Assembly: GCA_032358255.1 (NCBI GenBank)
Contig: JAULBX010015534.1
Location: 1-32,557 of the forward strand
Direction: 5' to 3'
Origin: Heterotrichella gracilis
Lineage: Eukaryota; Sar; Xanthophyceae; Tribonematales; Xanthonemataceae
DNA length: 32,557 bases
Below the pieces are notes generated by a model, which was not told where the DNA came from, made no database searches, and saw only the letters and a program-made list of their open reading frames with translations. Of the stretch, positions 219 to 30,583 are shown one piece after another (within the stretch, counting starts at the first letter, position 1; each line of letters starts with the position of its first letter). A program made the position numbers and the translations under genes.

Positions 219-3200
219 GGTATGCCCATGCAGCAGCCGGGCAGGGCCAACCCCATGCAGCCAATGGGAGCGCAGCACCCAGCCGGCCAGCCAATGGCAA
301 CGCACGCCATGGCGGCCCAGTCAATGATGCGGCCTGCCATGGGGGCAGTGCCCGGCCAGGGGCAGCCAGGTGGCATGCAGCAGGGGCAGGCAGGGGGGGC
401 GTGTGGCGGGATGGCGCAGGGGGTGTCGCAGGGCATGCCGGGGCAACCCTACGGTGGGTGCTGGCGTGTGGGGTAGCGGGGGGTGCTGTTGAGGGCAGTA
501 TGGGGCACGTGCTTGTTTTGGTCACTGCCTACTGCCACCCCCACATGCCCTGCCAGTGTGAGCCACCAGTCCTTACCATGGCCTGAGGATCGCACCCCCC
601 CCCTCCCCCCAACCCACACAGGCAACCAGCCCCCCCGACCGCCTGGCGTAACCACCACCTCCCCCCAAGGGCTGGGGGGCATGGGCCTACCTGGCTTGGC
701 GGCTCCGCAGGGTGAGCCTCCCGCCAAGCCCAAGCGGGTGTACAAGCGGAAGCCCAAGGCGGAGGTAGGGTTTTGTGTAGGGTTTAAGTTGGAGGGCTGT
801 GTATAGGAATTTGTGTGGGGTTTTTTTTGTGCAGGGAAATGGGTGTGCGATCGGAAGCCCAGGGCGGGGGCAGGGTCTTCTGTATGGTTTGTGTGAGAGA
901 GCATCCAGTGGTGCACCCAATACAGGCCATGGAAGTGCGTGTTGCGTTCGTCTGTGTTACCTTACTGTCAATGATGCACGCCTCCAGCCTGATTGCATGT
1001 GGCAAAGTTACTAGCATAATTATGCACCCCTGGTCGTCACAATCGCACTCAACCTTGGTGCATTTAATGGCTCGGATTGTTGGTTGAGGATTGTAATGGC
1101 AGCTGATCCTGGGTTGTGATCCTTAACAGGGGGAGGCTGCCAACAAAAAGGGCAAGGCCAGCCCGGCAAACCTCCCGCAAATGCAGCCGGGGGGCCAAAT
1201 GCAGCCTGGTCAGGGGTGGCAACCAGGGGCCCAAATGCAGCCGGGGCAGGCTCCAGGGGGTGCACCACAGCCAGCCCAACCTGCAGGGACCAGCCAGGGC
1301 ATGCCATCTGTCGCCTACCCCCAGGCCCAGCCAGGGTCCCAACCCATGGCGCAAACCCTACCGCAAGGGTTTGGGCAGGCTCCAGGTGGCGGCGCACCAC
1401 CCGTGCCAGGTCAGCAACTTGCATTGCGGATCAGCAAATGGCCTTGCGGATGAGCAAATAGCCTTGCACATGCAGCGCCAAGCAGTATTAACATGGCTCT
1501 GGTTACACCATTTGTTGGGTTTTGCGCGGTCCTGCTGAGTGTCAGGTCAGCCCATCTGGCCCTGGGCCTGAAACCACCCTTCTTATTTTAATAAATGCAG
1601 GAGCAGCCCCCGGCGGGGTTCCTATGCCTGGGGCGCCTGGCCAAGCGGGTGGCGATGATGCCAAGAAGGCCCCCAAGGAGAAAGCTGCTCGCAAGCCTGC
1701 TGCCAAGAAGGAGTCCGCTGAGGATGTGATCGATGTGCTCAAGGTGGGGATGCATATGAGAATGGGCAGGGGATTTGGCGGGGAGACATGCTGGTGTTGC
1801 ATGCGGACAGCGTCCAGGTTCCAAATATGGAGAGGGGTAGAAGGTGTGGGTTGACCACAGCCCTGGGTATTTGAATACATTGATTGATGGATACATCAGT
1901 CGGTGATCACGGCCTGCGTGTGATTGATGGAAGGCTACGGTGACATGGTAGGCAATCCAGGAGTAAGGCATATAGGGGCATGCGTGTTGTGCAGCGCAAA
2001 GGAAGCAGGGCGACAACCCATGTGGCCTGATTGCCATTCCACCCTCGCTCATGTGGCACCATCTCATAAGAAAGGATTTTTCAAAGCGCTAAGCTTCTAC
2101 CGCCTAACCGTCCACCCTCCATCTTTTGCAGGACACGGGCGTGAACCTGGACGACGAGGCCACCGCCCTCACCGCCTCCTACGCCAATGACTCCCTTCCA
2201 GCCAACCTCCCCTCGGGGCCCGTGGAGGAGCTGCTGCTCAGTGATTGGGCCCTGGGCCAGCGGGCCAAGGAGGTGACGCGGCGGCACGGCGTCAAATCCC
2301 TGGGACCCGACGTGCACAAGCTGCTGTCCCTGGGGCTGGAGGCGCACCTGGGGGCGCTGCTGGGGCGCATGCAGGCCATGGCCAAGCAGCGGGTGGAGGG
2401 CAGGTGGGTGTGGATGGTGGGTGGTAGGTTGGTGTGCTAGTGAGGGGCTGTTGACCAGCGGGGTGCTGTTAGGCAGGGTGCAGATCAAGCTGCCAGTTGC
2501 ATGTAACATCCTATGCTAGCAGGATCCGAGGGGGAGCATGTAGTTGTAATTGTCCCTGCATGTGGTTCCCTTTGTTTCGGGGTGCATGCGCTTTCTTTCT
2601 AGCTGTTGGGAACTTGGCGCAGGGAGTGACCACCTTGCACTCCCCTGTATGTGACCGTGCTTACCCCACTGCCCACATCCACTCCCAGACCCACACCCAC
2701 ACCCACACCCACACCCACACCCACACCCACACCCACATCCACATCCCATCCACATCCACACCCACATCCACATCCACATCCACATCCGCATCCACACCCA
2801 CATCCACATCCACATCCACATCCTCATCCTCTTGCCGCCCTTCCCATCCAACCTTACACCTCTTGACCTCTCCAACTCCTCCAACCCCCCTGCAGGCAGC
2901 GCGGCCCCTCGCTGCGCGTGTCGTCCTCCCTGTCTGGGCGCGTGGCCTCCATCAAGCGCCGCGAGGAGAAGGTGGCGCAGGCAAAGGTGGCGCTGGAGAG
3001 GCAGCAGCTGCTGCAGGTGGGTCGGACAGGGCACGCTTGTAGGGTGTAGGGTTCAGGGTTCAGGTGGTGCTGGAGAGGCAGCAACTGCTGCAAGTGGGTC
3101 AGGCAGGGCACGGCCTTAGGGTGTAGGGTTTAGGTGGTGCAGGCAAAGCTGGCGCCAGAGAAGCAGCCGTGGGTGGGACGGATAGGTGGTGGTTGTCGCC

Positions 3201-5446: not shown

Positions 5447-7285
5447 ATGGAGTCGCCAAGGGGAGCGTCACAAGCTGGGGAGGACGAGGAGCGGCAACGC
5501 ACCAGGCACCCAAGGCCATGCCACATCAACAGCCTTCCCGATGATGCCCTGGCCCAGGTAATGCGCCCGCTGGGACATGTTTAGTCACACATGCATGAAC
5601 TTCACAAACCCTAAACCCTAAACGCTGCCGTTTGCAAACCCTAAACCCCAAATTGGGTGCAACCAGCTGCAATAGCTTGCGAAGGGCCACGGGGATCATG
5701 ACTGCTGCATTAATGAACACACACCTAAGAGGTGTAGAATTGCAGTTGGATGATGGTAGGAGTGCATGCTACATGGTGGCGGAAGTGCATGATACATGCA
5801 CTTGCTGCTGCGCACCGCGGCCCAAACTCTGAACCCTCGCCCTGCCGCATGCTGCCGCAGGTGCTGGTCTGCCTGCCGCTGCGCACCCGCGCGCGCGCCC
5901 CTGCCGTGTTCCAGCGCTGGCACAACCTGCTAACCCACAAGGGCGTGCTGTGGGAGCGGCTGGCGCTTGGCCCCAGCGATTGGCGGGTCCTGAACGCCCT
6001 TGTGGACGCCCCCGCCTGCCTGTCCCACACCCAAGAGCTCAACATGCGGATGAGCTTGAGCGAGGAAGTGTGCACCACACTGGTCAGGGTGCTGGACCCC
6101 GCGTGGGTGCGCTCCCTGCGTATAAGCCTGCGCGAGCAGGTGAGGTTTTGGGAATCGGACGCTGACGCCCCAGCGGCAGCCAAAACCCCGGCGGACTACT
6201 TCCGCCCGATCCTGGCGGCAGTCGGCCGGCTGCATTGCCTGGAGAAGCTTTCCCTCATGGCGTACTCACATTCAGCCAAGCCTGGTGTGGCCCTCCCCAG
6301 GGATGAGGCGGCAGTGCACGCCAGCCTGGCGCCACTGACTGCCCACCTCAGCGCCCTCACAGCGCTCACCGCCCTGCAGCTTGACCTGAGCCAGCCCGCC
6401 TCGGAGCACTCCATGCAGCCTGTGTTTGTGCCCTACCCGCTGCCTGCGCTGCCCTCGGTGCGCAGGTTTGAGCTGGCAGTGGGGGTCCCTAAGAATGGCC
6501 TCATGCCTGCAAGCACGGGGAACCGTGTGCACAGCATGAGCCTGCCACTCAGCAGCCTGCCCCATCTACAGGAGCTGGAGCTGTGCGTGCATGCAACTGA
6601 CTTCAACTTTGACCTGCGGTCAGCTACCGGGCTGTCTTCCCTCACCTTGTTGGTGCATTCAGCCACGCTCGGCCTGCCAGAGAGGGGGCCTTGGTGGCCG
6701 GAGTCGCTCCAGCACCTTGACGTGAGGCTACATGCCGATTTGTCCGTGCGCAAGGATGGCCATGCACCAAACACGCTCAACTTCTCCCACCTGCTGCCCC
6801 CGGTGCGCAGCATCTCCCTGCAGGTCAATGGCCATGTGCTCGACCACAGCCTCATGCACATGCCCTCCTCGGTGCGGCACCTCAGCATCGCCTACGACTA
6901 TAAAGCCGACGTGGTGGTACCCTTCTTGCCCAACCTCACCCTGCTGAAAATCACCTTCAGGGGCCACAGGCAGCCAGAGGATGAACCCTTGAGGATGCAG
7001 CTCACCGCGCCCATCAACCCGCGCCTGCGCCTGGATGGCTGGCCGCTGGTTGGCAAGAATAATGGCATGAACACCCTCGTGGTTGCTGGTAGGGCCTGGG
7101 AGGTGGTGGAGGACCATGCGGGGGTGCAGCTGGTGATGAGGCAGCAGGCGGTGGAGTATCCATGGGGTGCGCTGGAGCAGCGCACCATGGATGATGTTGG
7201 GAGCAGGGTGGTGGGGGGGCCGGGGGACCCGGAGTTGGCGGCGGTCATGGAGTGGTTTGTGAGGGAGCGTGCACCTTATTCTTGA
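5447..7285 (+). CDS. F-box/leucine-rich protein A
   Basis: Probable substrate-recognition subunit of an SCF ubiquitin ligase. Two exons, 5447-5557 and 5861-7285 (TGA), joined in phase 0, give 511 aa. Residues about 29-75 form an F-box split by the intron: LPDDALAQ, then VLVCLPLRTRAR, then FQRWHNLL and VLWERL. The rest has irregular leucine-rich segments (LEKLSL, LTALTALQLDL, LPHLQELEL, ATGLSSLTLLV, LPNLTLLKITF) and a family-specific C terminus (AWEVVED, EWFVRERAP). The ATG at 5447 is chosen because MESPRGAS matches the starts of both paralogues (MASPR.AS). The frame is open further upstream with ATGs at 5288 and 5306, but the paralogues do not support that extension. It is the most diverged of the three tandem copies. 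The substrate is unknown. Confidence 0.82.
5603..5655 (+). repeat. Interstitial telomere-like repeats in F-box A intron
   Basis: Two clusters of CCCTAAA units (AAACCCTAAACCCTAAAC, then AAACCCTAAACCCC) separated by CGCTGCCGTTTGC lie in the intron 5558-5860. This is the Arabidopsis-type motif in the orientation commonly seen ahead of acceptors in this window. The array is too short to be a chromosome end. Confidence 0.85.
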
Positions 7286-7335
7286 TGTGGTTGTGTGAGG
7301 TTTGGGTTCCTTATTCTTGATGTGGTTGAGTGAGG
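7274..7335 (+). repeat. 36-bp tandem duplication spanning the stop codon of F-box A
   Basis: CCTTATTCTTGATGTGGTTG with the following GTGAGG, including the TGA stop at 7283-7285, is repeated at 7310-7335 with one difference. The second copy lies in the 3' flank. Confidence 0.85.
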
Positions 7336-8594: not shown

Positions 8595-10532
8595 ATGGCG
8601 TCGCCAAGGGAAGCATCGGGGGCTAATAACACTGGGGAGGACAATGCCCAGCATGACACCAGCCATTCACAGCCATGTCACATCAACAACCTGCCAGATG
8701 ACGCCCTGGCACAGGTATCAGTGATAATCGCCTGCTGTGATACTGTTGGCTTGTGGTCTCAACACCCAGCCCTTAAAAAACCCTACATTAGGGTTCTGTA
8801 CCACCAGCTGCACCACTTCTGTACTGCCTATGCACTAGCTTGTGCAGTGCCACGGGTTCTCACACGCCACATGTGCATGTAGTCATGCATGGTGATGATG
8901 GTAGGAGGGCGGGGGTGATGATGGCGGGAGTGCACGGGCATACCTCTGCCTCCCAGGGACAGTAGCACACATTTGGCATCCTGAAACGCCCTAGCAGCAA
9001 AAAGCAGTGCCTGGTGTTGATGGTGGGAGTGAATTAGGGCACCTTTGGTTCCATAACCCACCAAGGATCAGTAGCAACTGTGCATTTTAAAAACACCTTC
9101 CCATCTGCGGCTGCAGGTGCTAATGCGCCTGCCGCTGCGGGAACGAGTGCGTGCCACTCCAGTTTGCCAGCGCTGGCACAACATACTGATCCGGCAGGGC
9201 ATGCTGTGGGAGCGGATTGTGATTGACTTCTGGGGTCGTAAGCTCATTGCGCAGCTTGTGGCTGAGCCCGCCTGCCTGTCACGCACCCGAGAGCTCAAGG
9301 TGACAACCACAATGAGGGCTGATGAGTGCACCGCACTGGTGGGGGCGCTGCACCCCGCCTGCATGCGCTCCCTGCACATCACATTGGGTGACCTAGTGCC
9401 CTGGAGAGGCACCCACCAGGACGCCTCAGGCGGCACCCAAACCCCGTCAGACTACTTTGAGGGCATCCTGGTGGCAGTGGGGCGGCTGCGAGGCCTGGAG
9501 GAGCTGTCACTGCATGTGGACGCCGGCTCGGCACGGCCCGTCTTTGATGCCTACACTGGCTTGGCACTGGCGCACGCCAGCATGGCGCCCGTGACTGCCC
9601 ACCTCAGCGCCCTCACAGCGCTCACCGCCCTGCAGCTGGGATTCGCGCAGTACTCCGTACACCAAGTGGTGTTTGTGCCGTTCCCGCTGCCCGCGCTGCC
9701 CTCTGTGCGCAGGTTCCAGCAGACAGTGGGGACCACGGCAAATGACAGGCGGCCACCCGGCTTCTATATGCGCAGCATGAGCCTGCCACTCAGCAGCCTG
9801 CCCCAGCTGCGGGAGCTGGATCTGACTGTGAGGGCAGCAGACCTCACATTGGACCTGCGGGCAGCTACCGGGCTGTCTTCCTTCACCCTCTTGGTTTGTT
9901 TTGCAACACTAACCCTGCCAGACAGCGGGCCATGGTGGCCAGAGGCGCTCGAACACATGGCGCTTGAGCTACGGGGCGACCCCTCAGGGACCGCAAGGCT
10001 GGTGCGCAGGGGCGGTGCAGACATGTCGCACTTGCTGCCCCCGGTGCGCAGCATGTCATTGTGCTTCAATGGCAGTGGGCCAGAGAACTGTCTGCAGCAC
10101 TTGCCCTCCTCCATACAGCAGCTGCGCATCACCTCTACTGTCCACCGCAACCTGGTGATTCCCTCCTTGCCCAGCCTTACTCTGCTGACAGTCAACTGCG
10201 GAGGACCTTATATGGAACCAAGCAATCCTTATGTAGAGCTGCAGCTGACTGCTCCCATCAACCCACGCCTGCACCTGCACGGCTGGCCCTGGGGCACCGG
10301 GAGCCTTGGCAAGAACACCCCCAAGGTGGTAGGCAGAGGCTGGGAGGTGGTGGAGGATGCGAAGGGGGTGCAGCAGCACCTGGCAACGCGGGAGGCGCTA
10401 TTGTACCCATCGGGGTTGCCTGGATCTCGTGCCTTGGATGATGCTCAAAGGGAGCTGATGCGGGTGGTGGGTGACCCGGAGCGTCAGGCGGTTTTGGAGT
10501 GGTTGGTGAGGATGCGTGCGCCTGGTTCATGA
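8595..10532 (+). CDS. F-box/leucine-rich protein B
   Basis: Second tandem copy of the family, probable SCF adaptor. Exons 8595-8714 and 9117-10532 (TGA) join in phase 0 for 511 aa, with the intron at exactly the same F-box position (LPDDALAQ / VLMRLPLRERVR) as in copies A and C. The F-box continues PVCQRWHNIL and MLWERI. Leucine-rich segments follow (LRGLEELSLHV, LTALTALQLGF, LPQLRELDLTV, ATGLSSFTLLV, LPSLTLLTVNC). The C terminus reads GWEVVED, then DPERQAVLEWLVRMRAPGS. The ATG context (GGGATGGCGTCGCC) and N terminus MASPREAS match copy C. No charged coiled coil or membrane segment is visible. It is clearly closer to copy C than to A. Confidence 0.83.
8779..8795 (+). repeat. Head-to-head telomere-motif palindrome in F-box B intron
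   Basis: AACCCTA CAT TAGGGTT gives 7-bp perfect arms with a 3-base loop. The equivalent ACCCTA CGT TAGGGT occurs in the F-box C intron at 12904-12918, so it predates that duplication. Confidence 0.85.
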
Positions 10533-10716
10533 CATGGTTGTGGTGTGCTTTGGAAATGGTTATGAGGGTGCCTGCATCTGTTGCACCCTGGCTTACCATT
10601 CTTCTATTGTGATGCAAAGTGTTAGGTAGTGAATGGCGGGATAATCTGGTGCCATGCGTTATTAGCGGAATATCTATGGGAAACTCCAATTTTGTGGGTT
10701 GACATGATCCGTTCAA

Positions 10717-10721
10717 TGTAA
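10717..10721 (+). promoter_or_regulatory. TGTAA polyadenylation-like signal, F-box B
   Basis: TGTAA in the context GTTCAATGTAACA lies 185 bp after the stop of copy B. The paralogous position after copy C has ATTCATTGTAACA. TGTAA is the usual green-algal poly(A) signal. Confidence 0.5.
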
Positions 10722-10722
10722 C

Positions 10723-10741
10723 AGAAGAAAGAAAGAAAGAA
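10723..10741 (+). repeat. (GAAA)n microsatellite
   Basis: About four tandem AGAA/GAAA units directly follow the TGTAA motif. Confidence 0.8.
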
Positions 10742-11323: not shown

Positions 11324-11333
11324 GCCAAGTCAG
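11324..11333 (+). repeat. Left target-site duplication GCCAAGTCAG
   Basis: Identical to 11957-11966 and immediately outside the inverted terminal repeats of the 623-bp insertion. Confidence 0.75.
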
Positions 11334-11956: not shown

Positions 11957-11966
11957 GCCAAGTCAG
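11957..11966 (+). repeat. Right target-site duplication GCCAAGTCAG
   Basis: Identical to 11324-11333, on the other side of the insertion. Confidence 0.75.
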
Positions 11967-18400: not shown

Positions 18401-21400
18401 TGGCAGTGGCGGTGGTGGTGGCAGGGCCAGAGGGGGCAGGGGGTGGGAGGTTGAGGAGGAGGATGCAGTGCCTGATGAGGACCCGGGCAACTGGCGAGCC
18501 CTGCAGGTGCGGAAACCCTAGCAAAACCCTGTCCCTGTCCCTGTCCTAGTCAAGTGGACATTTAAATTTTACACATACCTGTGGAAACGCTGCCAAATAC
18601 CTGCATGCACCGAAACCCTTGCACCCTGTAATTGACCTTAGTTGGGGACGTGGCACGATGGCTGGCTAATCGGAAGGGTACATACAGCAACCCTGCCAAA
18701 CTATTGCAAAATCGCATCTATTCCGACAGATGTCATTGCCATCTGCCTCATGTTTTCTTTCCTTGCCCTCTTGATGGTCCCAGGCGTATTAGAAATCAAT
18801 GTAGTTGGCTTTTGTCTCCCCAGTGCAGGGACCCGGTGGGACGCCAGGTGGCATTCCCTGGGAGTGCTAATACTAATTGTTGTCCTTCCTTTGCAGGGTC
18901 CCGGTGGGACGCCAGGTGGCGCTCCGTGGCAGCCCCGCACCGCCACCACCCCTTCAATTAACGCGCCCCCCTGGGAAGCAGCCATCGCCTCTGCACTGGG
19001 GGGCCCACCTAGGGACAAGGCGGGCAATGCGGAAATCACACCCCTGCAGGTAGGGTGGTGTGCGACGGCTGGTTGACATTCTTGCATGAATGGCTGTGCA
19101 TGTGCATGGAAGTTAGCAGCGTGCTCAGGTATTCGCCATGGATTTATGCGACAGTGGGGGTGCATTTCGAGGCGCATGGTGCGCTTGAATCCCTATTCCT
19201 ACCGATAGAATTAGAGTTTGACAGCTTGTCAGCGTACCATGCGCTGTTTAGGGTTTTAGGGTTTCTGTGCACCCTGCAGGTTGACCCCTCCATCAGCTTT
19301 GACCAAGTGGGGGGGCTGGACCATTACATCCGAGCACTGAAAGAAATGATATTTCTCCCCTTGGTGTACCCTGAGCTCTTCCAGCACTTCCATATTACGC
19401 CCCCCAGGGGTGTACTGTTCTACGGCCCGCCAGGTGAGGGCTTCACCCGCAGGGTTTCGTTAGGTTTCCTCAGAGGCTTCCTTTGAAATTTCTGCCAGTA
19501 TGCCGTTATACGGCCGTTCCACTGGTCGGGATTTACCTGTAGGGTTACTGGTCGGGATCGCCCCTGTAGTGCTTAGCTATGGCACTCTTAAGGAAAATGT
19601 CGCGCTAGGGTTTCTGTAGGGTTTATGCACACACTAAGACTAGTGTAGAGATTGGCAAGACCTTTGTGACGCCAGCCCTGGCCGCCACAGCTAGCCTTAA
19701 GGGGGGACCGGCAATACCCTAAACCCCAAAACCCTACTTTAGGTACTGGCAAGACCCTAGTTGCACGGGCGCTTGCCGCCACCGCAAGCCGCGCTGGCCA
19801 GCCCGTGTCCTTCTATATGCGCAAGGGGGCTGACGTGCTGTCAAAGTGGGTGGGGGAGGCTGAGCGCCAGCTGCGGCTGCTGTTTGAGGAGGCGCAGCGC
19901 AACCAGCCCTCGATCATCTTCTTTGATGAGATTGACGGCCTGGCGCCGGTGGGTTTGGGCGCAGGACCATCATGATGCATGTCGGTTGCATAGGGTGTTG
20001 TAGGGCTTAGGGTGTTTTGTCGGATGGATGATGGATGCGCAATACGCTATCCATCTCTTCCGCACCCTCATATGCTCACCTGATATGCTGTTTAAGGAGG
20101 CGGAGCCCGACCAGCCCTCCATCATCTTCTTTGATGAGATAGATGGCCTGGCGCCGGTTGGTGCCTGTACTCGAGTCCTATATGGGTACATGCATCCACA
20201 TCATGGGTTACCTGTGCGTGCATGGTGCGGTTTGTGGCACTCGTTGTGCTTCCTTCCATCCCCCCTTCCAGAGTTGCAACAGGAAACAGAACCAGATCCA
20301 TAACAGCATTGTGTTCTACCCCGTTGATTCTCCCCAAACGACATCCTTGCCTGAGTGGTTTCCTCCCCATTACATTCCATTTCCCCCCCTTCAGGTTCGC
20401 AGCAGCAAGCAGGACCAGATCCACAACAGCATCGTGTCAACCCCTGGGGTTTTCCCTAAGCTAGTGATTTCCTCCCCAATACATTCCAATTTCCCCCGCT
20501 TCAGGTTCGCAGCAGCAAGCAGGACCAGATCCACAACAGCATCGTGTCAACGCTGCTGGCGCTCATGGATGGGCTGGATGCGCGGGGCAAGGTGGTCATT
20601 ATAGGGGCGACAAACAGGATAGACGCCCTGGATGGGGCGCTGCGCAGGCCGGGGAGGTGGGTGCTCAAAGCCTGGGTTATTTTTAATTACTTTTAGTGGT
20701 CAGTTAGTTGGTTCAGTGCACTCCAGCAACACAGCAGTACTGCCATTCTTGTACATGTGGCGCCGAGCAGTTTGGCACTGTTTATTATTTGTTGGTGCTT
20801 GTATTTGCTCTTTTCCTTTCAGCTTTTTGTGTGCCACTTTTTGCTTTTTGGTTACTGTTTTGCTCTTTTATTTTGACTTTATGCCCTTTCATTCCCCGTT
20901 GTGCTTTCTGATTGCTCTTTTTCACTATTCAGGCTTTCATCTGTTCATTTTATTTTTGTGCTGCTGGGCATTTTGGCTTCTTTCCCTCCCCTGTCCAACC
21001 CCTGGTTTCCTCCCCTCAGGTTTGACCGAGAGCTGCTTTTCCCCCTGCCCAACCAGTCTGCGCGGGAGCAGATCCTGGACATACACACCAAAGCATGGGC
21101 AGACCAACCCGACCAGGGGCTGAGGGCTGAGCTGGCAAGGGTTAGTGTGGGCTACTGCGGGGCGGACCTGAAGGTAGGGTTTGGGTCTAGGGTTTTTGGG
21201 TCGAGGGTTGGGTCCAGGGTCCTAGGGTTTCGTGGTGGCGGCCTGAGCTGGCAAGGGTCAGTGTGGGCTATTGTCAAGACCCTGGTTGGGTTGATTAGGG
21301 TACTTTGCACTCACTTCTGCAGCTATTTGCACCTCCTCACCTCCCCGCTTTCCCCTCTGCTCAATCCCACTCACTCACTCACCCTCTTCCCAGCTGAAAA

Positions 21401-24400
21401 TTGACGCACAACTTCTCCTGGATCCCCCAATCCCAGGCCCTGTGCACCGAGGCCTCCCTCCACGCCCTGCGGCGCTGCTACCCCCAGATCTACGACAGCG
21501 ACCAGAAGCTGCTGGTGGACCCTAGCAGGGTGCTGGTGGAGCGCCAGGACTTCATGGCGGCCCTGGCGGCAATCACGCCTGCCAGCCACCGGTCGGCGAT
21601 TGAGCATGCGCGCCCAGTAGCGCAGCTGCTCATGCCTCTGCTGGAGGTGTGGTAATTTGATTTTTCTGTCCATGTTAGGGTTTAGGGTTTAAGGTGGCGC
21701 AGCTGCTCATGCCGCTGCTGGAGGTGTGTTATTACGGCACTCTTTTCCATGTTTAGGGTTTGGGGTTAGGGTTTAGGGTGGCGCAGCTGCTCATGCCGCT
21801 GCTGGAGGTGTGGAGTTTGCTTTCTATTTTTCCTGCATCATTAGGCATGGAGATAATGCTTTCTTGCATGACGTGAGGGCGTTTTCTCCAGAATAATCCT
21901 AAGACTAGAACCCTATGCTGCAGCCCCATGTGGAGGCCATCATGGCGCATCTGCGCCAAATCTTCCCGGCAGCCGCTGCCCTGGCACCTGGCGAGTCATA
22001 CGGCGCCAGGGATGGGGGTGCGGCCCCGGGGCTGGTCGGAAAATTCCGCAGCTTTTACAATGGGCAAGGTAAGCTCATGCTGCATTCTGCCTCTCTCAAT
22101 TTGTAAAGCTGAGTTTACCTTACCTGTGAGATGGTGTAAGCAGTGCCAGGACAGGGCTGGCTGACGCAAAGAGAGGGCACACCTCTAATATGGTATAGCT
22201 GGAACTCTTGTAACTACCAAGAGCAGGAGGACTTAAATATGTGATATATCAAGTCCTCCTGCCAAGAGTACGCGATTGCAACGTTGGGACGACATTGCCA
22301 TGCCCTCGCCCCTTATCCTGCAGGTAACATGCTTATCAATCCCATTGTGCCCATTTTCTGCATCCCTGTCCAAACCATCCCCATCCCCGTCCCCGCAGGC
22401 GGCTCCGGGGGCGCGGCGCTTCCCCACACGCACACGCCTGTGGCGCGCCCCCGCCTGCTTGTGTGTGGGCCCGACGGCAGCGGACAGCCCCACATAGGCG
22501 CTGCGCTGCTGTATGCACTCGAGGGCCTGCCGGTGCACGCCATTGGCCTGCCGGCGCTGCTGTCGGATGCTGGCGCCAGGTGGGTGTGGGTGTAGGGGGG
22601 AAGTGAATGGGTGCGTGTATGTTGCTGTGGGGCGAATTGTGTACCGCGTTGGCAATCCATATCTACATGGCACTCAAGTGCCTGCCAGTACTGTTGCCTG
22701 ATGCGCTGGATGGTACAGTCATGAGTTGTGGCTGAAACAATGTCCCGTAACAAAAGCTTCATACATTCCAACCAAATTTTATATAAACTCTCCCTGCAGG
22801 TCCCCCGAGGAGGCCCTTGTGCGCGCAATCATTGAGGCCCGCCGGTCCGCCCCCGCAGTATTATACCTCCCCCACCTCCAGCTCTGGTGGGACACGGCAC
22901 CCGCCTCCCTGCGCTCCACCCTGTGGATGCTGCTCGCTGACCTCCCCTCCGATTTGCCCCTACTGCTCATCGGGACTGCTGAGTCAGCGTTAGGGGAATT
23001 GGACCCCGAGGCGAGGTCGTTATTCGGGGGTGAAGGGGAGGGGAGCTACGAGGTTGGGCCGCCTGACGAGCGGCAGCGCAGGATGTTCTTCGAGGTGGGC
23101 AAGGGGTTTTACTAGGGTTTTACTAGGGTTTTGGAATCGCTTGCTAGGTTCTTTGGGTTGGCGAGGGTTTTACAAGGGTTTTACAAGCGCTGGCTAGGGT
23201 TTTCTGCCTCGTCATAAGTGGACTGCAGGTGCTCACAATTGCTTGACTTGTCACTTAGAGTTTAGGGTAAGGTAGCCTCTGGTGGTGTGGGAAAACAAGC
23301 ACCGGCGTAGCAAGGGCATGCGCGTCTGACAAGAGGTTTAGCCTAGTGACCGGCGTTTCTAGGGTTTCAGTCCTGGGTTTCTAGGGTGTCAATTCATTGT
23401 GTTTAGGGTTTTGACTCCCTCTGCTCCCTGCAGGGCGTGTGCAACGCCATTGCCTTGCCGCCACCTCCACCCCCGCCAGCTAAGTCGGTCACAGCAATAC
23501 CAGAGGTATGCAAATACCCAGAAACCCTTACACCCCAGCCACCTGCATCCCATTAATGTGGGTTTTTGCACACGCCGGTTGCATCGCATCGCAACCCTTG
23601 ACTGGCGGCCAGCAAGTGCATGTGTGCTGTAGAGCCGAGCCACAAGCATGCACACACCGCACTGCCTGTCACCACATGCTTGCACGTCACCATTTCCAAC
23701 TCCCACTCATCCCCAATCACGATCCCCAAAAGATATTAAAATGGCCCCATTCATGCAGCTCCCTCGGGCACCAGATGCCGTGGATCAAGGGGAGAAAGAG
23801 CACGCGGAAGCGAAGAAACGGGAGAGCCGCGCCGCCTGGGAGTCCCAGCAGGCCGCCCTGCGAACCCTAAGGGTTGCGCTGCGGGAAGTGACCACGCGCA
23901 TGCTGTGCAACCGCAAGTGGGCGCTGTTTGCGCAGCCAGTGTCGCCCGAGGAGGACCCAGAGTACTGGGAACTGGTAGGGTTTGTATAGGGTTCTTGCTA
24001 GGGTTTTGCCAGGGTTTTGTTGAAAAATGTTTGCGCAGCCGGTGTCGCCTGAGGAGGACTCAGAGTACTTGGAGCTGGTAGGGTTTTGTAGAGGGTTTTG
24101 CTGGTTGCTCAGCCAGTGTCGCTTAAAGAGGACCCGGATACTGAAATGTGGCAGGGTTCTGGAGAGGATGCATTAGGGTTTTGCTGTTCCATGGAGAGGT
24201 ATGTGAGGCACTTAAAATAACAGAGCAGATTCGAAAGCACGTGCGCGGATCCCAAGTGCGTTTCTCTGGGGGCAATCTGCACAGCATCGTTGCTAGATTG
24301 TGAACCCTAATTATGGCCTGAAACCCTTTCAGTCTCTGAAACCCTACACAAGGCCTGAAACCTCAAGCAAGGGTTTCTGTTTCCGCCCCAGGTGACCAAT

Positions 24401-27039
24401 CCCATGGACCTCGCCACCCTCCTGGCCCGAATCGACTCGCATGCCTACCTCACATTGGGGCAGTACCTTGCTGACGTGGCGCTGATAGCAGAGGGGGCCA
24501 GGCAGTACTGGGGAGATGACGTGACCGCGGTACGTAAGGAAAAGGCATGTGCATGCGTGTGGTTGTGGATGTGGTTGCGGACGGTGCTGATTGTTGTGTA
24601 CATTGTACGCGCGCGCATGCGGTGGTGCGCATGCGGTGGTGCGCATGCGCATGCATGCAGCCAGTGCTGTGGTTGCGTGTGCTGGCTGGGATTTAATTCA
24701 TGTATTTCTTACATGTGCATCTGTACGCGTCTGTGCCAATATGTAGTATATGGTTCGATATATATGCGCATGTGTGAGGTTTTGTGGACGACAACATCTG
24801 CATGCAATGCAGTGAAATTGACCCATGCGTGTCTCCATGCACTCAGCCAGCCAATCCGCGCACATATGCCAACGTTATCCACACAGGTGCTGGAGGTCAG
24901 CACCCTAACCCTAAATCATGAACCCTAAACCCAGGTACGGGAGGTCAGCCGAGCACATGCACTGGTAGACGAGGTCCAGGCGCTGGTGGCTGCACGCGTG
25001 CCCCCCGAATTGGCGGCCAAATGTGAGGCGATTGTGGCGGGAGGGGGCCCCTTGCCGCCACCACCAGGTGAGGGAAAACCCTACATTGAACCGTAATCGC
25101 GCCTTCCAGACCCTTGCGGTTGAGCTTTCTTTGTGCAATCATACCCAGAGTGCTGTTTGCAACCTTGGAATCTACTGCGGCGGAAACGCACACTGTCTTG
25201 ATCTCGAGAAAGTGTGCAAACTTTGCTACTGTGCGGAACCATGAGCATGGTACGGGACCTGCTGCTGACACATACACATGATTTTGCGTTTCCAGTTGTT
25301 TTGCTTTCTTATTTAACTCATCTCCTCCCTGTTCTTTTCACAGGTGTCATCCCCCCTGCCCCAGTGCACCAGTTTGGGTCCCGCCCCCCCCGCCAAGGGG
25401 GAGACATGCGAAACGCAACTGGTACGGAGCTCAACAATACACCACAGTGCAGCCCCATGGTGTACGCATTGCCATGTGAATGCATGCACTCCCTCCTGAA
25501 CAGCTGCCAGCACCCCCCTTGTGTAACCACACCGATCACCATGCGGTGTGGGGCTGCATCTCTTCACATGGCCATTCCCGTCACACTAGATCGCCACCCC
25601 CAACCACCCCATCTCCACCGGGACTGTCACCCCCCCACGCCATCCCCGTTACTCTATGATCCACTCCCCCTCCTTGCGCGCAGGCCTGCCCCCCACCACC
25701 CGCAGCAGCCGGCGCCTGCATGGTGGTGAGCCCTCCAGTGAAGCCAGGGTGGTGTTTGACGATCCAGAGGCGGTGGCCAGGCGGCTGAGGGAGATCCGGC
25801 GCGCCATGAAGGCAGACAGCCAGGTAGGGCTTGGTAGGGTATTTGGTAGGGTTTTGATAGGGTTTAGTGGGGTTTGAATGATCCTGAGGTGGTTGCCAGG
25901 CGGCTGAGGGAGATTAAGCGCATCATGAAGGCAGACAGCCAGGTAGGGCTTGGCGGGGGTTTGTAGGGTTTTGTTAGGGTTTTGATGGCTGTGGGGGTTT
26001 TTGTATGTGTTGGTAGGGTTTGTGAGTTTTGCATGCCCAGCCAGCAGCGAGCAGCATTTGCTCACTTGGCTAACTGTGTGCTCCACACACTAACAGGGTC
26101 AGTCCATAACGCCCGCCGGAGTGCCATCACAGCATGACACCGCGGCCACCCCCGCCCCGCCGCCCCCCGATCCCCCTTCGGCATCGGCGCCAGGCAAAAC
26201 AGGCCCAGGGGAGCTACATGGGAATACACAAAACGGGACGGAGGACGCGACCCCTGCGCCGCATGATGGCGCTGCGGGACATGACGGCGGCGCGGCGCAT
26301 GATGGCGCTGTGGCAAATGATGGCTCCCCAGGACTTAATGGGGAGAACGGGGGTGTGGCGCTGGGTGCCCATACCTTTGCAGCGTTTACAGACGATGCGG
26401 ATGCAGCGCCAGGACCTGGCAGTTTGGGCAAGGGAGGGGAGGAAGGAGAGGACGCAGGAGGGGAGGTGGTTGCGTCTGGCAATGGAGCTATGCCCCACAT
26501 GTTGTCTATGGCCAGCAGCAAGGATCTGCGTGAGCTGGATCAAAGGGAGGGAATGGAAGGGGGTGAGAATGGGGAAATGGAGGAGGCGGATGGGGAGGTG
26601 TTGGTGGAGGCAATGCAAGCGGTGAGTGGTCTCAATCCCCCCTTTGCCTTTCTTGCGTTGCTGCTCTCTTGGCGGTTTGGATGTGCATGTCCTGTGCTTT
26701 TTGGTGTAAAGATGAAAGTGAGTCAGCTGCATGTAGGAGTAACTATCGTTTTTTCGGCCACATCCTTTTTTGCAACTGCCCCTTGACACCACCACCACCT
26801 CCCCGCAGGCTGAGTTCCACGCTCCGCCCTCCCCGCCCCCAGCAACCCCTGCTGACCTGGCAGCCGCCGCCACCCTCCTTGCGGCGGTGGTGGAGGCGAG
26901 TGAGGGGATGGTGGTGGGGACCCTCGAGGGGGTGTTCGCCGGGTTGGCGCGACTGGTGGCGGGGGCACAAGGGGAGTGCGACAGGGCAAGGGTGGTCGAG
27001 GAGGCAATGAAGTTGGTGCAAGGGTGGAGGCGGGTGTGA
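15403..27039 (+). CDS. ATAD2: ATAD2/Yta7/BRAT1-type AAA+ ATPase with bromodomain
   Basis: Nuclear chromatin-associated AAA+ ATPase; family members act in histone turnover, transcription and, in plants, anti-silencing. The 23 exons are 15403-15528, 16088-16285, 16723-16914, 17252-17491, 17888-18027, 18329-18506, 18897-19049, 19280-19433, 19743-19948, 20505-20656, 21020-21173, 21437-21646, 21924-22068, 22399-22579, 22800-23094, 23434-23505, 23759-23974, 24392-24529, 24935-25067, 25344-25421, 25684-25823, 26097-26621 and 26809-27039. They total 1418 aa, close to human ATAD2. Acidic/basic N terminus with YSLRDR. AAA1 (about 410-631): Walker A GPPGTGKT (458-465), Walker B IIFFDEID (518-525), sensor GATNR, arginine-rich RRPGRFDRE. 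AAA2-like (about 702-908) has a degenerate P-loop GPDGSGQ. Bromodomain about 966-1080 with NPMDLATLL, but YWGDD where YNGDD is expected. The C terminus is low complexity, then Ala-rich helical. The ATG has A at -3 and G at +4. Confidence 0.95.
16455..16645 (+). repeat. Diverged direct repeat inside ATAD2 intron 2
   Basis: CAGCTGCTGCACCCAAGCTGTC near 16478 recurs as CAGCTGCTGCACGCAAGCTGTC near 16610, each preceded by similar CTTTTATTTC/CTTTAATTCC sequence. Offset about 132 bp. Neither copy matches an exon I recognise. Confidence 0.7.
18143..18206 (+). repeat. Diverged exon-edge echo in ATAD2 intron 5 (copy of about 17962-18031)
   Basis: The end of exon 5 (CAGAGCCGCTCTACTCCACAG and on) is matched by CTGAGCTGCTGTATTCCAAAG about 178 bp downstream, with similarity extending back through ATGTGCCACGCTGAG versus ATGCGCCAGGCAGAG. 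More diverged than other echoes, so probably older. Confidence 0.6.
18829..18864 (+). repeat. Exon-edge echo ahead of ATAD2 exon 7 (copy of 18897-18932)
   Basis: The first 36 bases of exon 7 and its CAG acceptor are duplicated 68 bp upstream with 31 of 36 bases identical. Using the upstream acceptor in the exon frame would reach a TAA after about 13 codons. Confidence 0.85.
20089..20158 (+). repeat. Echo of the Walker B end of ATAD2 exon 9 (copy of 19881-19950)
   Basis: 70 bases with 63 identical, offset 208 bp, including the whole Walker B block and the donor position. The copy still reads [19 protein letters not shown] in frame. No good acceptor precedes it, so it is called a pseudo-exon. 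Confidence 0.88.
20273..20441 (+). repeat. Two echoes of the start of ATAD2 exon 10
   Basis: The first 47 bases of exon 10 (20505-20551) are repeated identically at 20395-20441, with the preceding pyrimidine tract and CAG acceptor also copied (unit about 110 bp). A decayed third copy begins at 20273 (GTTGCAACAGGAAACAGAAC). Only the last copy continues into the full exon encoding the sensor region. Confidence 0.92.
21240..21273 (+). repeat. Exon-edge echo in ATAD2 intron 11 (copy of about 21124-21157)
   Basis: GAGCTGGCAAGGGTCAGTGT recurs 115 bp after the exon copy GAGCTGGCAAGGGTTAGTGT. The gap is filled with TAGGGTTT-like units. Confidence 0.8.
21697..21811 (+). repeat. Two echoes of the end of ATAD2 exon 12 (copies of 21620-21650)
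   Basis: The last 31 bases across the donor are repeated at 21697-21727 and 21781-21811, each with one difference (CCT to CCG). The linkers are TTAGGGTTTAGGGTTT tracts preceded by a repeated TCCATGTT. Units are 77 and 84 bp. Confidence 0.92.
22223..22262 (+). repeat. Hairpin in ATAD2 intron 13
   Basis: GCAGGAGGACTT (22223-22234) and AAGTCCTCCTGC (22251-22262) are 12-bp perfect inverted arms around a 16-base AT-rich loop. A smaller hairpin CTCTTG...CAAGAG lies just upstream at 22205-22223. Confidence 0.85.
24028..24154 (+). repeat. Two echoes of the end of ATAD2 exon 17 (bromodomain)
   Basis: 23925-23974 is copied at 24028-24077 with 45 of 50 bases identical and the GTAGGG donor kept. A more decayed copy begins at 24105. 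TAGGGTTTTG units fill the linkers. Confidence 0.88.
24608..24658 (+). repeat. Alternating purine-pyrimidine tract with 14-bp tandem unit
   Basis: CGCGCGCGCATGC is followed by two GCATGCGGTGGTGC units and GCATGCGCATGCATGC. It lies in ATAD2 intron 18 and is of a composition able to adopt Z-DNA. Confidence 0.75.
24884..24901 (+). repeat. Exon-edge echo ahead of ATAD2 exon 19 (copy of 24932-24949)
   Basis: CAGGTGCTGGAGGTCAGC copies CAGGTACGGGAGGTCAGC 48 bp downstream; the gap is mostly CCCTAACCCTAAA-like units. Use of the upstream acceptor would meet TAA after 13 codons. Confidence 0.78.
25880..25942 (+). repeat. Echo of the end of ATAD2 exon 21 (copy of 25761-25823)
   Basis: 63 bases with 55 identical, offset 119 bp, including GTAGGGCTTGG after the donor. 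The copy would encode three conservative replacements (A to V, R to K, A to I) and three silent changes. Confidence 0.9.
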
Positions 27040-27888
27040 ATGGCGGGAAATGGAGAGGTGGTGTGCGTGTGGGGGGGAGGGACTCATTGCGTGAGTGTTT
27101 ATTCCCCACAAATGTCGTGGAAATAATATGGGACGGCTTTTATTGTGGGGTCCAGGCCTTAGGGGTTTGCCCAATGTTCAATCTGCAGTATCTTCTTTCC
27201 ATTATTTTGGCGGGCTCCAGGACACATCACTGCCACGACTTTTGACCAGATTCTTATCCTAATAGGATAAGAATCCTCATAGTATGCCTATTTCCATAAT
27301 GCGTGGGAAAGGCAATGTTCTTGTTTGCTTGGGAGTTGATAAGGACACCCTGCCATTGGACAACGTTGGCAACTTATGTGACATGGATGCTATAACCGCC
27401 CCGACTGCCACAGCCACTGGAAGCACTGCACAGGTCCACGACTCTGTTATATTCATCCTATATCGAATTGTGCTGCGTGTTCACTTTCTTTCCTCCTTTT
27501 AAGAGATTCCCTGCAAGGGCGCCATGGCATGCCCACCCTGAGGATGGGCCAGGCAGATGCATGCAAAAATGATTTGTCCGCAAGGATTTGGAGGCACGTA
27601 TATGCTAATCAATGATCCCACAGCTGCTTGTGCATATGCAGTATCAACGAATTGTTTTCCAATGTCACTGTCAATCAATGATTACTGGCGCGGGCGCGGG
27701 CGGCACCCTGAACTGAGCCACCATGGTGGTTGATGATTCCCATGGCTGCCCGCACCTGAAAGTGTCCAGAATCCTAGAATCGAAATCCTCTGATTCACAG
27801 GTATTTGGTATCCTTTCGCCTGCGCGCATCTGATTGAAGCCCACCGATACCCACAACCATCGCATCCCCCACCGCCCCCACACAGTCC
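27040..27888. other. Intergenic between convergent ATAD2-like and GTPase genes
   Basis: No gene recognised. It contains the perfect hairpin at 27249-27275 and is otherwise mixed sequence that would hold both 3' untranslated regions. No TGTAA motif was found near either stop. Confidence 0.6.
27249..27275. repeat. Perfect 27-bp palindromic hairpin downstream of ATAD2
   Basis: GATTCTTATCCT AAT AGGATAAGAATC has 12-bp arms and a 3-base loop, 210 bp after the ATAD2 stop. It lacks a following U run and is not a histone-type stem-loop. Confidence 0.88.
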
Positions 27889-30583
27889 TCAGCTGCCCTC
27901 CCCTTGCGGCTGAATCAGATCATGATATTCTGTTTGGGGCACCGAAACAATTTTACCCTCATTTGAGGATGCTTGGGGCACCAAAACAGAGTCACCCTCC
28001 TCCAAGGATGCTTGGGGCACCGCACCAGCGTCCGCCTCATCCGCGGATGCTTGCCCCTTGTAGCGCGGCAGCTCCAGCGCGAAATTGCCCAGCGCGCCCG
28101 TGCGGTAGTCCTTCAGGATCCGCTGCCCCGCGCGCTCCGTCCCCGCATCCCCAACGAACAGCGCCTCCCCCACCGCCCCCACGTAATCCTCCGCGCTCAT
28201 CCCCTCTGGACTGACCTTGTACCTCCCCTTGAGGGCGCGCACCAGGGCGGGGGCGTTGGGCAGGCGGCGCAGCGTGACGATGAAGGCCGCCGCGATGAGG
28301 GAGTCGATGTAGGAGGCCTCGCCGATGTCGTTACACATGGCCAGCTTCTGGGCCGCCACCTGGTCGGTGAAGTTGGCGGGGAGCACACCTGGGGGGGGGG
28401 AATGGAACACTGTTAAGGGGAATTGGCGGGAAGGACACCTGGTGCAAGGGGCCGGAACTGATTTCATCACTGTGGTCTGATGAAAGAGTCAATGTTAGAG
28501 GCTTCGCCGATGTCGTTGCACATGGCTAGCTTCTGGGCTAGCCACCTGGTCGGTGAAATTGGCCGGGAGGACACCTGGGGAGAGAGATTTGGAACCTTTT
28601 AGGGTAAATAGAGTAATGCCAATTGGCCACCTGGCGCAAGCGGGCGGGTTTTGAATAGGGTCATAGTTTGAATAGCTGTAGGGCAAATCCAGAGGTGCAA
28701 GACACCCCTTTCCAGTCTGTGATGCTTACCGGGGCGTACTGGCCCCATAAAACACATGCACTAAAACTTGTTAACAGGCATACTCATTGGCCCCCACCCC
28801 ACCCACCCACCTGGCGAATCCAGCAAGTCCAAGTCACCCCCCAGCCTCAGCCAGCGAAGCCTGCGGGTGACCCCGGGTTTGGGCGCGCTTTCGCACACCC
28901 GCCGGTTGAGCAGGCGGTTGATGAGGGCGCTCTTGCCCACGTTGGGGAACCCTACTAGGGCCGCGCGCACTGGGCGGGGCTTGAGGCCACGGCGCAGCCT
29001 GCCAGCGTTGATGGCCTCAGAGAGGTCGAGGGCGGTCTTGGTGACCTGCGGGGGGAGTGGTGGGGGGTTTTAGGGTGTAGGGTTTGGAGTTTAGGGCTGC
29101 TGGCGTAGGGATGCGACCCAGCCAAATTGTCGATGTTCGAAAAAAGGGTTTTAAACGGTTTGGGATGTGAGCATGGGGGCCGCCCTCTGAGATGGCTACC
29201 CCACACTACCTCACAAGGGTCAAGCCAACAATTAGATTGCCCCATCTATCCACCTCGTGACCTTTGCAAACATGCAAGCATGAGCGGCCGTGTGGCATTT
29301 TCTTAGGTGAGGCATTACATACCGCTTAGAATGGTTGTCCCTGTAAAGCCTCCCAGCCTTACACCATATGCAAGCCATTGAGTGCCCCCAACCGTACACC
29401 AACGGTTTCCCCCTCCAACTCACCCGTTGTATGCCGTCCCCATTCACGCCATTGGTCCACAGCACGGGCTGCCCGATCTGCCGAAAGTGCTCCGACCAAA
29501 GCTTGCGGTCCCGCTCCGAAACCATGTCCCTCCGATTCATGACCACCAGCCGGGGCTTGGTGCCGATCCACTTGTCGATGGAGGGGTGGGCGGTGGCGTA
29601 GGGGATCCTGCGCGCCGCAAAAATGCTCGGTTTGAAAGTGAGCCATTGTGTGGGGGAATTATGGCCTTAATGATGGTTTGTTTGCATATTCAACATGGAG
29701 CAGGGGATCCCGTGCGGCGCAAAAGCACTAGACAGAATGATTTTTTCTTTTGCAAACCATTGTGTGCGTACACCCTGTACCAAAATGTTGCACTTTCGCA
29801 AACGTCAGGCTGTGAACATGGTTCTTGAACCCTAACTGCTAATCCCTGAACCTTACATCCCATACCTTGCGTCCCTCACTTCGACCACCACGTCCACCAT
29901 CTTGAGCTGCTCCTTGAGCTGGCGCTCAGCACGCGCAATGTGGCCGGGGTACCACTGGACCATGCGCACCTACAAAAGTGCACATTTTATTAGTTTATTG
30001 TATTAATAGAATCACCATGTGGCCGGGTGCTACTGAACCAAACGCACATGTGCAATTGGGGAGGATTGGCTTATGAAGGCGAGCATTTAAGGCGCATAGT
30101 GAGGCATACATACAAGTACATGGGGCCCATAGGTTGCTACCAATTTTGTCGTGTGCTCATACCGTGCTGGTTTCAGCATTGAATTGGGCATCCTTGCCCT
30201 CAAGTAGGTCTCCACAGCCCAAGCGATCCACCCTTCCCCAACATGTACATGTGCTTAGCGCAGGGGAAGTCATGAACACTGCATGCACATGGCTGGCAAG
30301 CCAGGGCCAAACCGGTATGGCGTGGAACCAGCAGGGCCGGCTTTTGGGGCAACGCAATTCAGCGTGTATGGTGGCCCCGAGTAGTGGGAAAGGGGGCATT
30401 CTGGTATAGGTTGGATGCGGGGGTACCGTTTGATCCTTACTTTAGAGAACGCCTGCTTGCTTTTCAACCCACGCGAGCGCCGAAACCCTAGCCAAACCCT
30501 ACCTGCAGGGTTTGCGTGGACAGCATAGGGTCCTTCATGAGCTCCTCCAGCAGCTCCTGGTCCTCCGTCAATGCGTTCACCAC
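27889..30583 (-). CDS. RbgA/YlqF-type circularly permuted GTPase, chloroplast-type (5' end unresolved)
   Basis: Ribosome-assembly GTPase, probably organellar (plant DAR GTPase 3 family; RbgA matures the bacterial-type large subunit). Exons on the minus strand are 30583-30503, 29969-29866, 29607-29424, 29045-28811 and 28388-27889 (TGA), 367 visible residues, all in phase. Motifs come in permuted order: [12 protein letters not shown], then VRDARIP, then G4-like MNRRD, G5-region TNG, G1 GFPNVGKS (lysine about residue 161), a PGVTR G2-region block, and G3 DSPG. A C-terminal domain follows ([25 protein letters not shown]). The usual NKxD of G4 reads NRRD. The last 40 residues are a low-complexity tail built of 13-residue repeats. 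The first exon begins at an acceptor, so the start codon and any transit peptide lie upstream, unresolved. Confidence 0.92.
27934..28040 (-). repeat. 39-bp coding tandem repeat in the GTPase tail
   Basis: TTGGGGCACC recurs at 27934, 27973 and 28012 (period 39). On the minus strand it encodes 13-residue units beginning (A/L/S)VPQ(A/T). It lies beyond the conserved GTPase C-terminal domain. Confidence 0.85.
28417..28582 (-). repeat. Echoes of the start of the GTPase last exon
   Basis: The first 90 or so bases of the last exon (28388 down to about 28295) are copied at 28480-28579, about 185 bp away, including the acceptor. Indels break the frame (QVASPEAS instead of QVAAQKLA). A short third piece, GGCGGGAAGGACACCTGG, lies at about 28426-28443. 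Confidence 0.88.
29640..29775 (-). repeat. Echo of the start of the GTPase G4/G5 exon
   Basis: GGGGATCCTGCGCGCCGCAA (29601-29620, acceptor and exon start on the minus strand) is matched by GGGGATCCCGTGCGGCGCAA at 29703-29722, and CCATTGTGTG recurs at 29644 and 29758. Confidence 0.75.
30017..30055 (-). repeat. Echo of the start of the GTPase WYPGH exon
   Basis: ATGTGGCCGGGTGCTACTGA, continuing to CGCAC, copies 29938-29969 (ATGTGGCCGGGGTACCACTG) at an offset of 79 bp, and reaches past the acceptor. Confidence 0.75.

Follow-up and report, generated by a model that had tools for sequence, protein, structure and literature searches.

Echoes of exon ends in introns

Introns of the xanthophyte alga Heterotrichella gracilis carry copies of the exon ends that border them, and these copies, referred to here as echoes, are very probably the remains of head-to-tail duplications that crossed a splice site and that are associated, on the donor side, with the telomere repeat. 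They were noticed in the TAF4, ATAD2-like and GTPase genes of a stretch of 32,557 nucleotides (hereafter the window; contig JAULBX010015534.1), which is part of a 68.5 Mb, 903-contig assembly. A sequence-only reading of the window had claimed at least a dozen introns with such echoes, at both exon ends and on both strands, and this is what is seen there (Table 1). When 60 nt exon edges were aligned locally against their own intron, with a score of at least 100 defining a strong copy, 12 of the 35 window introns proved to carry a strong echo, amounting to 13 copies (8 donor-side and 5 acceptor-side) at offsets of 68-208 bp, whereas the same edges aligned against all other introns gave 0/1260 per side. 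At a score of at least 80 there are 18 copies in 15 introns, where about 0.6 would be expected by chance, and a diagonal scan that uses no gene models recovers most of the same pairs. The run of 47/47 identical bases reported earlier is seen directly at 20395/20505, and the range of echo ages is indeed continuous.

The excess of exon-edge copies is real and is not confined to the window. We examined 23 stretches, the window included, comprising 245,295 bases or 0.36% of the assembly, a non-random sample. The 22 other stretches hold 14 donor-side and 10 acceptor-side echoes in 246 predicted introns, where comparison with shuffled exon-intron pairs, a check that had been proposed for the whole genome, gives an expectation of about zero. 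Over all 281 introns, 22 donor-side and 15 acceptor-side echoes occur, in 34 introns in total; the numbers expected from shuffled pairs, of which there were 6824 for each side, are 0.04 and 0.0, respectively. Near-diagonal duplications number 110, compared with 4.5 at far offsets (19 stretches), which is the short-offset pattern of local tandem duplication. Introns with an echo are also longer (median 420 nt, against 238 nt), in agreement with the proposal that introns grow in this way, and the central idea of recurrent tandem duplication across splice sites is likewise supported.

Duplication units and decay of the copies

The head-to-tail arrangement is complete in the stretches L014 and L031 and largely so in two pairs within the window. 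The unit in L014 (1294-1809) consists of the final 62 nt of an exon and about 46 nt of intron; three more copies of it follow head to tail within the intron, the first two matching at 61/62 and 60/62 positions. The unit in L031 (3527-4060) measures 112 bp, and its copies match at 62/63 and 56/62. The window pairs belong to the start of ATAD2 exon 10 (20359-20443 and 20469-20553, unit 110 bp) and to the end of exon 21 (25751-25843 and 25870-25962, unit 119 bp). In older echoes the intron part of the duplicated unit has decayed; where an echo reaches the exon edge, its intron flank resembles the functional flank (0.80, compared with 0.67 for random flanks). The best account is that local head-to-tail duplications, of about 70-210 bp each, have repeatedly copied a unit in which some tens of exon-edge bases are joined to the splice site and to intron sequence next to it. 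The outer copy stays in use, kept by selection, and the inner copy ends up within the intron and decays. Later events would mostly re-duplicate the same exon edge, leaving younger copies nearer to the exon and lengthening the intron outward, and on the donor side the new junction commonly falls just past a TTTAGGG tract whose G-rich strand reads out of the exon. We infer the succession of these events, and also that the tract helps to make the duplication rather than marking the introns in which duplications occur. Where an edge has at least two copies (n = 14), the nearer copy scores higher in 12/16 adjacent pairs, with 2 ties and 2 pairs in the opposite order. Introns therefore appear to grow outward from their exons via repeated duplication of the exon edge, an age gradient that comes from small numbers.

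Divergence between echo and exon depends on codon degeneracy. In 41 echoes, aligned with looser gaps and longer edges, 213/1502 0-fold sites (14.2%) and 119/460 4-fold sites (25.9%) differ, a ratio of 0.55. This is close to the one-to-two expected when only the synonymous sites of the exon are free to change and the entire echo is free. The echoes contain 72 indels, of which 55 involve just one or two bases and 7 have a length divisible by three. Judged by these comparisons, the echoes are most probably dead copies, with constraint on one copy of each pair and not on both, as coding tandem exons would have it. Stricter alignments had pointed to coding constraint on the echoes (0-fold 8.4%, 4-fold 27.1%), a candidate that was rejected once looser gaps gave the values above together with frameshifts. 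A weak trace of such constraint is nevertheless left, with 5 stop codons among 319 changed codons, where about 10 would be expected, as estimated from a 3% share among random changes.

That the echoes serve as alternative exons in some transcripts is accordingly very unlikely. Several of them were called as in-frame exons by our gene finder, strict gap costs place mismatches at third codon positions (131, vs 52 and 54), and under strict alignment only one single-change codon is a stop. However, neither the 0-fold to 4-fold ratio nor the indel lengths agree with this, and if the echoes within the AAA domain of ATAD2 were used, the Walker B stretch would be present twice, a doubling that solved relatives do not have. 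The divergence of the echoes also bears on the trivial explanation. Tandem repeats are in general prone to assembly errors, but errors would neither follow codon degeneracy nor tend to rise with distance from the exon, as the divergence does, and an assembly or sequencing artefact is next to negligible as an explanation.

Aligned with human ATAD2 and the S. pombe relative, the product of the joined ATAD2 exons has no extra residues where echo introns interrupt the AAA domain, and the echo at 20097-20156 is absent from the protein by alignment to 8h3h and 6jpq. The claim that the outermost copy always continues the reading frame holds in the AAA domain of the ATAD2-like gene against these solved relatives, the one place where "always" was independently tested. 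Selection accounts for such an order whatever the mechanism, since use of the inner site would lengthen the exon by intron sequence, and the frame of the outermost copy is thus no clue to how the duplication arose. The inner copies may act as decoy splice sites, as had been suggested: GT or AG is retained in 18/29 of the echoes that reach the exon edge.

A different role for duplication would be the birth of introns from a duplicated exon segment bearing AGGT, a mechanism already known (PMC4974935) and one that the sequence-only reading had also raised. Two introns have the expected arrangement (0/3000 random pairs), of which the one in L029 looks like a minisatellite, but at a score of at least 90 these two are all there are among 281 introns, and the traceable echo units include pre-existing intron sequence. 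As a rule for intron gain the idea is not supported, and as an explanation of the echoes it is highly improbable. The best candidate in the sample for a duplication-born intron lies in L013 (176-464, minus strand), where a predicted intron begins much like the exon downstream of it (score 145).

Telomere repeats at donor-side junctions

TTTAGGG is taken as the true telomere repeat of this alga because arrays of it stand at contig ends (contigs C70 and C140 begin, and C173 ends, in them) and because a 25-mer of the repeat has 341 overlapping matches in the genome, ends included, whereas the reversed control has 0. At the right end of C173, the last 300 bases of stretch L035 pass from degenerate TTTAGGG with TTCAGGG variants into a purer array that runs to the contig end. 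The repeat is also found internally, for example at C61 29423 and C120 45695, as interstitial telomeric sequence. In the sample, the 8-mer TAGGGTTT/AAACCCTA occurs 114 times in 80.6 kb of introns (41 of these in the window), 27 times in 101.7 kb of intergenic DNA and 4 times in 63.0 kb of exons. Intronic telomeric 7-mers number 381 in sense and 298 in antisense orientation; the reversed word occurs 59 and 37 times, and another word of like composition 52 and 58 times. Past the donor, the G-rich form has one maximum within 50 bp (2.32 per kb) and a second at 100-150 bp (1.17 per kb), while the C-rich form is densest over the final 50 bp ahead of the acceptor (0.99 per kb). Duplications copy telomere words too, so that these densities overstate the independent evidence; tests of the proximal spacer and of the junction avoid most of this effect.

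The spacers between exon and echo are often built of TAGGGTTT-like words, with a telomere-like coverage of 27% for 37 echoes, vs 7.9% in the first 80 bp at 343 echo-free edges. A telomeric 7-mer whose G-rich strand reads out of the exon lies within 60 bp of the exon at 11/22 donor edges with an echo, compared with 18/168 without one (p 3.8e-5); the opposite orientation, both sides combined, is present at 1/37 echo edges vs 22/343 edges without an echo. At the junction itself, a telomeric 7-mer is present in the 35 bp ahead of the donor-side copy in 10/22 cases, vs 3.0 at random places in the same introns (0/2000), and the reversed word in 1/22. These results, on a link that the sequence-only reading does not mention, suggest that the synthesis of telomere repeats or homology to them plays a part in the duplication, on the donor side only.

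The telomere repeat is able to fold into quadruplexes. G-quadruplex tracts might therefore stall replication forks beside exons, with backward template switching copying the exon edge, and the repeat does lie in front of the new junction. However, generic four-run G quadruplex motifs occur at 4/37 echo edges vs 40/343, showing no link in a test whose power is lowered by cutting the stretch at echo edges at the echo. The specificity of the tract in sequence and orientation speaks against a general quadruplex effect, again on the donor side only, and we regard fork stalling as unlikely.

Telomerase-primed repair is plausible as the cause of the duplications. The fuller proposal, that some of this alga's intron sequence is the work of telomerase, via tailed 3′ ends that re-anneal in the exon, is offered tentatively and is on balance doubtful. 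Here, breaks or nicks just outside exons would expose 3′ ends pointing out of the exon, to which TTTAGGG repeats would be added. The tailed end would then re-anneal in the exon by short homology, and the exon edge, splice site and intron would be recopied, with introns growing outward in steps of about 100 bp. In L014, an AGGGTTT within the exon coincides with the start of the duplicated unit and may be the re-annealing homology for a telomere-tailed end. Because the telomere repeat contains stop codons in all three frames, it would, if telomerase acts in this way, persist where it is spliced out.

Over 35 genes the echo rate rises with telomere-word density (rho 0.60), in part since duplications copy the words, and a dispersion test for gene-level echo hot spots is not significant (P 0.34). 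Two stretches chosen for their telomere repeats, L034 and L035, were left out of all counts. The first has an echo in 3/12 introns, none of them in the intron with the longest tract, and the second in 0/5, its tract apparently being a chromosome end. In L034 (4694-4795), two pure (TTTAGGG)n blocks stand in one intron of an AAA-type gene, BCS1-like by eye, and no strong echo is found there.

Exon edges compared with intron interiors

Young pairs (identity at least 80%, n = 52) were compared with an expectation obtained by shifting all pairs around each stretch. Exon-intron pairs were observed 31 times vs 14.6 expected and intron-intron pairs 10 times vs 10.9, with 4 vs 14.2 for intergenic pairs, 2 vs 7.9 within one exon, 4 vs 3.1 for exon-intergenic pairs and 1 vs 1.2 between exons. 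The shortage of within-exon pairs agrees with purifying selection; that of intergenic pairs is clear in the sample, "intergenic" meaning outside predicted genes. The youngest class (identity at least 85%, at least 35 nt) contains few pairs, 21 in number, of which 14 are exon-intron and 1 is intron-intron (6.8 and 4.2 expected). Counted by position, copies were found for 36/312 edges vs 52/1138 interior 60-mers.

Several points weigh against duplication of exon edges with a donor-side telomere link as the account of the echoes. The excess of edges over interiors is no greater than the longer detectability of exon-anchored pairs could yield, and edge specificity is not proven, since a pair anchored in a conserved exon can be recognised for up to twice the time. 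The acceptor side is without a telomere link (3/15 echo edges vs 21/175; at the junction 2/15 vs 1.1 expected), 12/22 donor-side echoes have no telomeric 7-mer at the junction, and restricting the comparison to echo-bearing genes weakens the link (odds ratio 2.2 for both sides together, one-sided p 0.024). The gene models outside the window, moreover, come from a purpose-built gene finder.

These points lead to an alternative in which tandem duplications are uniform over intronic DNA, the cases at exon edges are just recognisable for longer, and the telomere words are bystanders of G-rich donors; to this combination we give somewhat less than an even chance. A two-fold difference in detectability would suffice for the exon-intron and intron-intron counts of young pairs. 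As for the words, the donor consensus, GT[AG][AG]G, resembles TAGGG, and GTAGGG is near that consensus. However, the intronic telomeric 7-mers lie far above both control words, and the echo-free edges, at which an outward 7-mer is so much rarer, control for the donor consensus. A uniform intronic rate may hold, whereas bystander words fit the donor-side data poorly.

Relation to known systems

Splice-site-spanning duplication has a precedent in the RdRp gene of potato, where a tandem genomic duplication crossing an intron-exon boundary made a new intron (PMC4974935). In both cases a splice site already in place lies inside the duplicated block and splice signals are copied, but the potato case as described there is a single intron-making event, whereas in the alga many events mostly lengthen introns, with serial copies and donor-side telomere repeats. 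Exon sequence with splice motifs is likewise duplicated at the Drosophila intron positions ascribed to sliding and tandem duplication (PMC2891723); there, new intron positions arise in coding sequence, and a decaying intronic series is absent from the passages of that paper examined. Introners also represent a genome-wide process that alters introns, but they are reported as copies of one element in many genes (PMC9860276), whereas each echo copies its own neighbouring exon. The echoes accordingly form no shared family (0/1260 per side at score 100), and it is the telomere words that are shared between introns.

The telomere repeats have precedents of their own. Short interstitial telomeric sequences were inserted during double-strand-break repair in human and horse, and among 66 horse telomere-repeat loci a flanking duplication stands by itself at 3, with duplications also present at some of the 19 complex loci (PMC7215372). 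Both cases place telomere repeats at internal sites; the intronic share of the human insertions agrees with chance, whereas the repeats of the alga are concentrated in introns and tied to donor-side duplications. Plant telo boxes resemble the present case in having TAGGGTTT/AAACCCTA within genes, and a proposed model has telomerase extend free 3′ ends where transcription takes place, with strand invasion as the next step (PMC3022908). In contrast to the echo introns, the boxes of Arabidopsis and rice are concentrated at gene 5′ ends and in 5′ untranslated regions, and the passages of that paper examined contain no exon-edge duplication. By analogy, telomerase extension, break-repair insertion and exon-edge duplication may be combined in this alga, and the case is a real telomere-repeat-associated variant of known tandem duplication. 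Among the titles and abstract openings listed by searches of an open-access library we noticed no paper linking telomere repeats, introns and splice-site-spanning duplications, and no account of serial intron lengthening by exon-edge copies.

The usual explanations for intron lengthening are transposons or insertions of unexplained origin. In the present case the added sequence reveals where it came from, can be dated with the help of synonymous sites and accrues stepwise, so that the growth of an intron could be traced through its single events. Were the telomere-repeat link causal, gene structure across a genome would be under the influence of an enzyme of the chromosome ends. There is also a practical consequence: the gene finder mistakes some echoes for exons, and annotations of such genomes may therefore hold spurious repeated peptides.

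Sample, gene models and window features

Among the sampled stretches, L004, L010-L020 and L023-L028 sit around Ras-family matches and L029-L032 are arbitrary places, while L001-L003 and L005-L008, whose contigs are already covered by longer stretches, were not counted a second time. L009, L021, L022 and L033 were left out as probable non-algal contigs. These contigs (C1, C321, C331 and C205, respectively) have 35-37% GC, compared with 50-56% elsewhere, and include very long ones (C1 with 894 kb, C331 with 596 kb); all four possibly derive from bacterial companions or contamination.

The TAF4, ATAD2-like and F-box models of the window were built by hand, with every join GT-AG and no internal stop. 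The names TAF4 and GTPase follow the earlier reading, F-box comes from inspection of the translations, and the ATAD2 identity is confirmed by solved relatives. The first GTPase intron (GG-GG) had wrong borders and was dropped, reducing the window introns from 36 to 35. The gene finder was trained on the hand models and retrained on the 23 stretches; after removal of 8 predicted exons that were themselves echoes, 284 introns were kept, 281 of them of 60-1200 nt. In the predicted introns of all algal stretches the last exon base is G in 92% and position +5 is G in 87% of donors, and position -3 is C in 91% of acceptors, a uniformity inflated by the self-training of the gene finder.

Table 1. Genes, echoes and telomere-like spacers of the window, in order of position. 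Matches are identical over aligned bases; coverage is the share of bases in telomere-like 7-mers with at most one mismatch.
Feature	Position	Strand	Match and remarks
TAF4 gene	219-4123	+	7 exons, hand-built model
TAF4 intron, weaker echoes on both sides	454-621	+	463-507, 35/44, score 87; 562-612, 35/47, score 95
TAF4 exon end, source of copy at 837-869	732-764	+	
TAF4 donor-side echo of 732-764	837-869	+	26/33; with intron part 732-797 vs 837-902, 50/66
Nearer echo, TAF4 exon ending 3016	3028-3092	+	47/61; offset 11-76 of intron 3017-3478; best preserved from about 3063, preceded by telomere-like words
Farther echo, TAF4 exon ending 3016	3132-3175	+	35/44; immediately 3′ of TAGGGTGTAGGGTTT
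Three tandem F-box/LRR-like paralogues	5447-7285, 8595-10533, 12727-14642		one intron near start each; named by eye
ATAD2-like gene	15403-27039	+	23 exons, hand-built; exon 1 end shifted by one base
Weak acceptor-side echo, ATAD2 exon 2 start	15910-15957	+	35/48, score 87
Donor-side echo, ATAD2 exon 5 end	18148-18204	+	42/57; no telomere-like spacer
Acceptor-side echo, ATAD2 exon 7 start	18829-18864	+	31/36; AG retained
Acceptor-side echo, ATAD2 exon 9 start	19651-19696	+	34/46; CCCTAAA-type words between echo and exon
Donor-side echo, ATAD2 exon 9 end (Walker B region)	20097-20156	+	54/60; GT retained
Older acceptor-side echo, ATAD2 exon 10 start	20259-20314	+	44/56 vs 20492-20547
Young acceptor-side echo, ATAD2 exon 10 start	20395-20451	+	54/57, first 47 identical
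Telomere-like spacer, ATAD2 exon 11 end to its echo	21174-21231	+	79% covered
Donor-side echo, ATAD2 exon 11	21232-21273	+	35/42
Donor-side echo, ATAD2 exon 12 end	21694-21723	+	28/30; immediately 3′ of TTAGGGTTTAGGGTTTAAG
Second copy, ATAD2 exon 12 end	21778-21807	+	28/30; likewise 3′ of TTAGGGTTTAGGG
Weak donor-side echo, ATAD2 exon 14 end	22670-22704	+	26/35, score 82
Telomere-like spacer, ATAD2 exon 17 end to its echo	23975-24027	+	77% covered
Donor-side echo, ATAD2 exon 17 end	24028-24077	+	45/50; GT retained
Second, more decayed copy, ATAD2 exon 17 end	24100-24138	+	32/39
Telomere-like spacer, ATAD2 exon 21 end to its echo	25824-25882	+	81% covered
Donor-side echo, ATAD2 exon 21 end	25883-25942	+	52/60; GT retained
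GTPase gene		-	
Acceptor-side echo, last GTPase exon	28514-28574	-	54/60; AG retained
Donor-side echo, GTPase intron holding 28514-28574	28682-28718	-	29/34, score 93
Copy of GTPase exon/intron border 29594-29622	29696-29724	-	24/29; 14 exon and 15 intron bases
Acceptor-side echo, GTPase exon 29866-29969	30013-30047	-	28/35, score 100

None of the introns of the F-box/LRR-like paralogues has a strong echo, and Rfam gave no match in the window at gathering scores. Among the 120 relatives listed of 4922, the ATAD2-like protein matches Myrmecia bisecta best (67% identity), followed by Chlorella sorokiniana and Coccomyxa, and no near-identical protein is among the matches listed. Judged by these matches, the source would be a green alga of the trebouxiophyte group. 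Intron 5 of TAF4 contains a CACCCA/CACATC minisatellite at 2690-2830, upstream of the acceptor. The commonest 8-mer in the sampled sequence is TGCATGCA, with 228 occurrences over both strands, each place being counted twice as the word is a palindrome.

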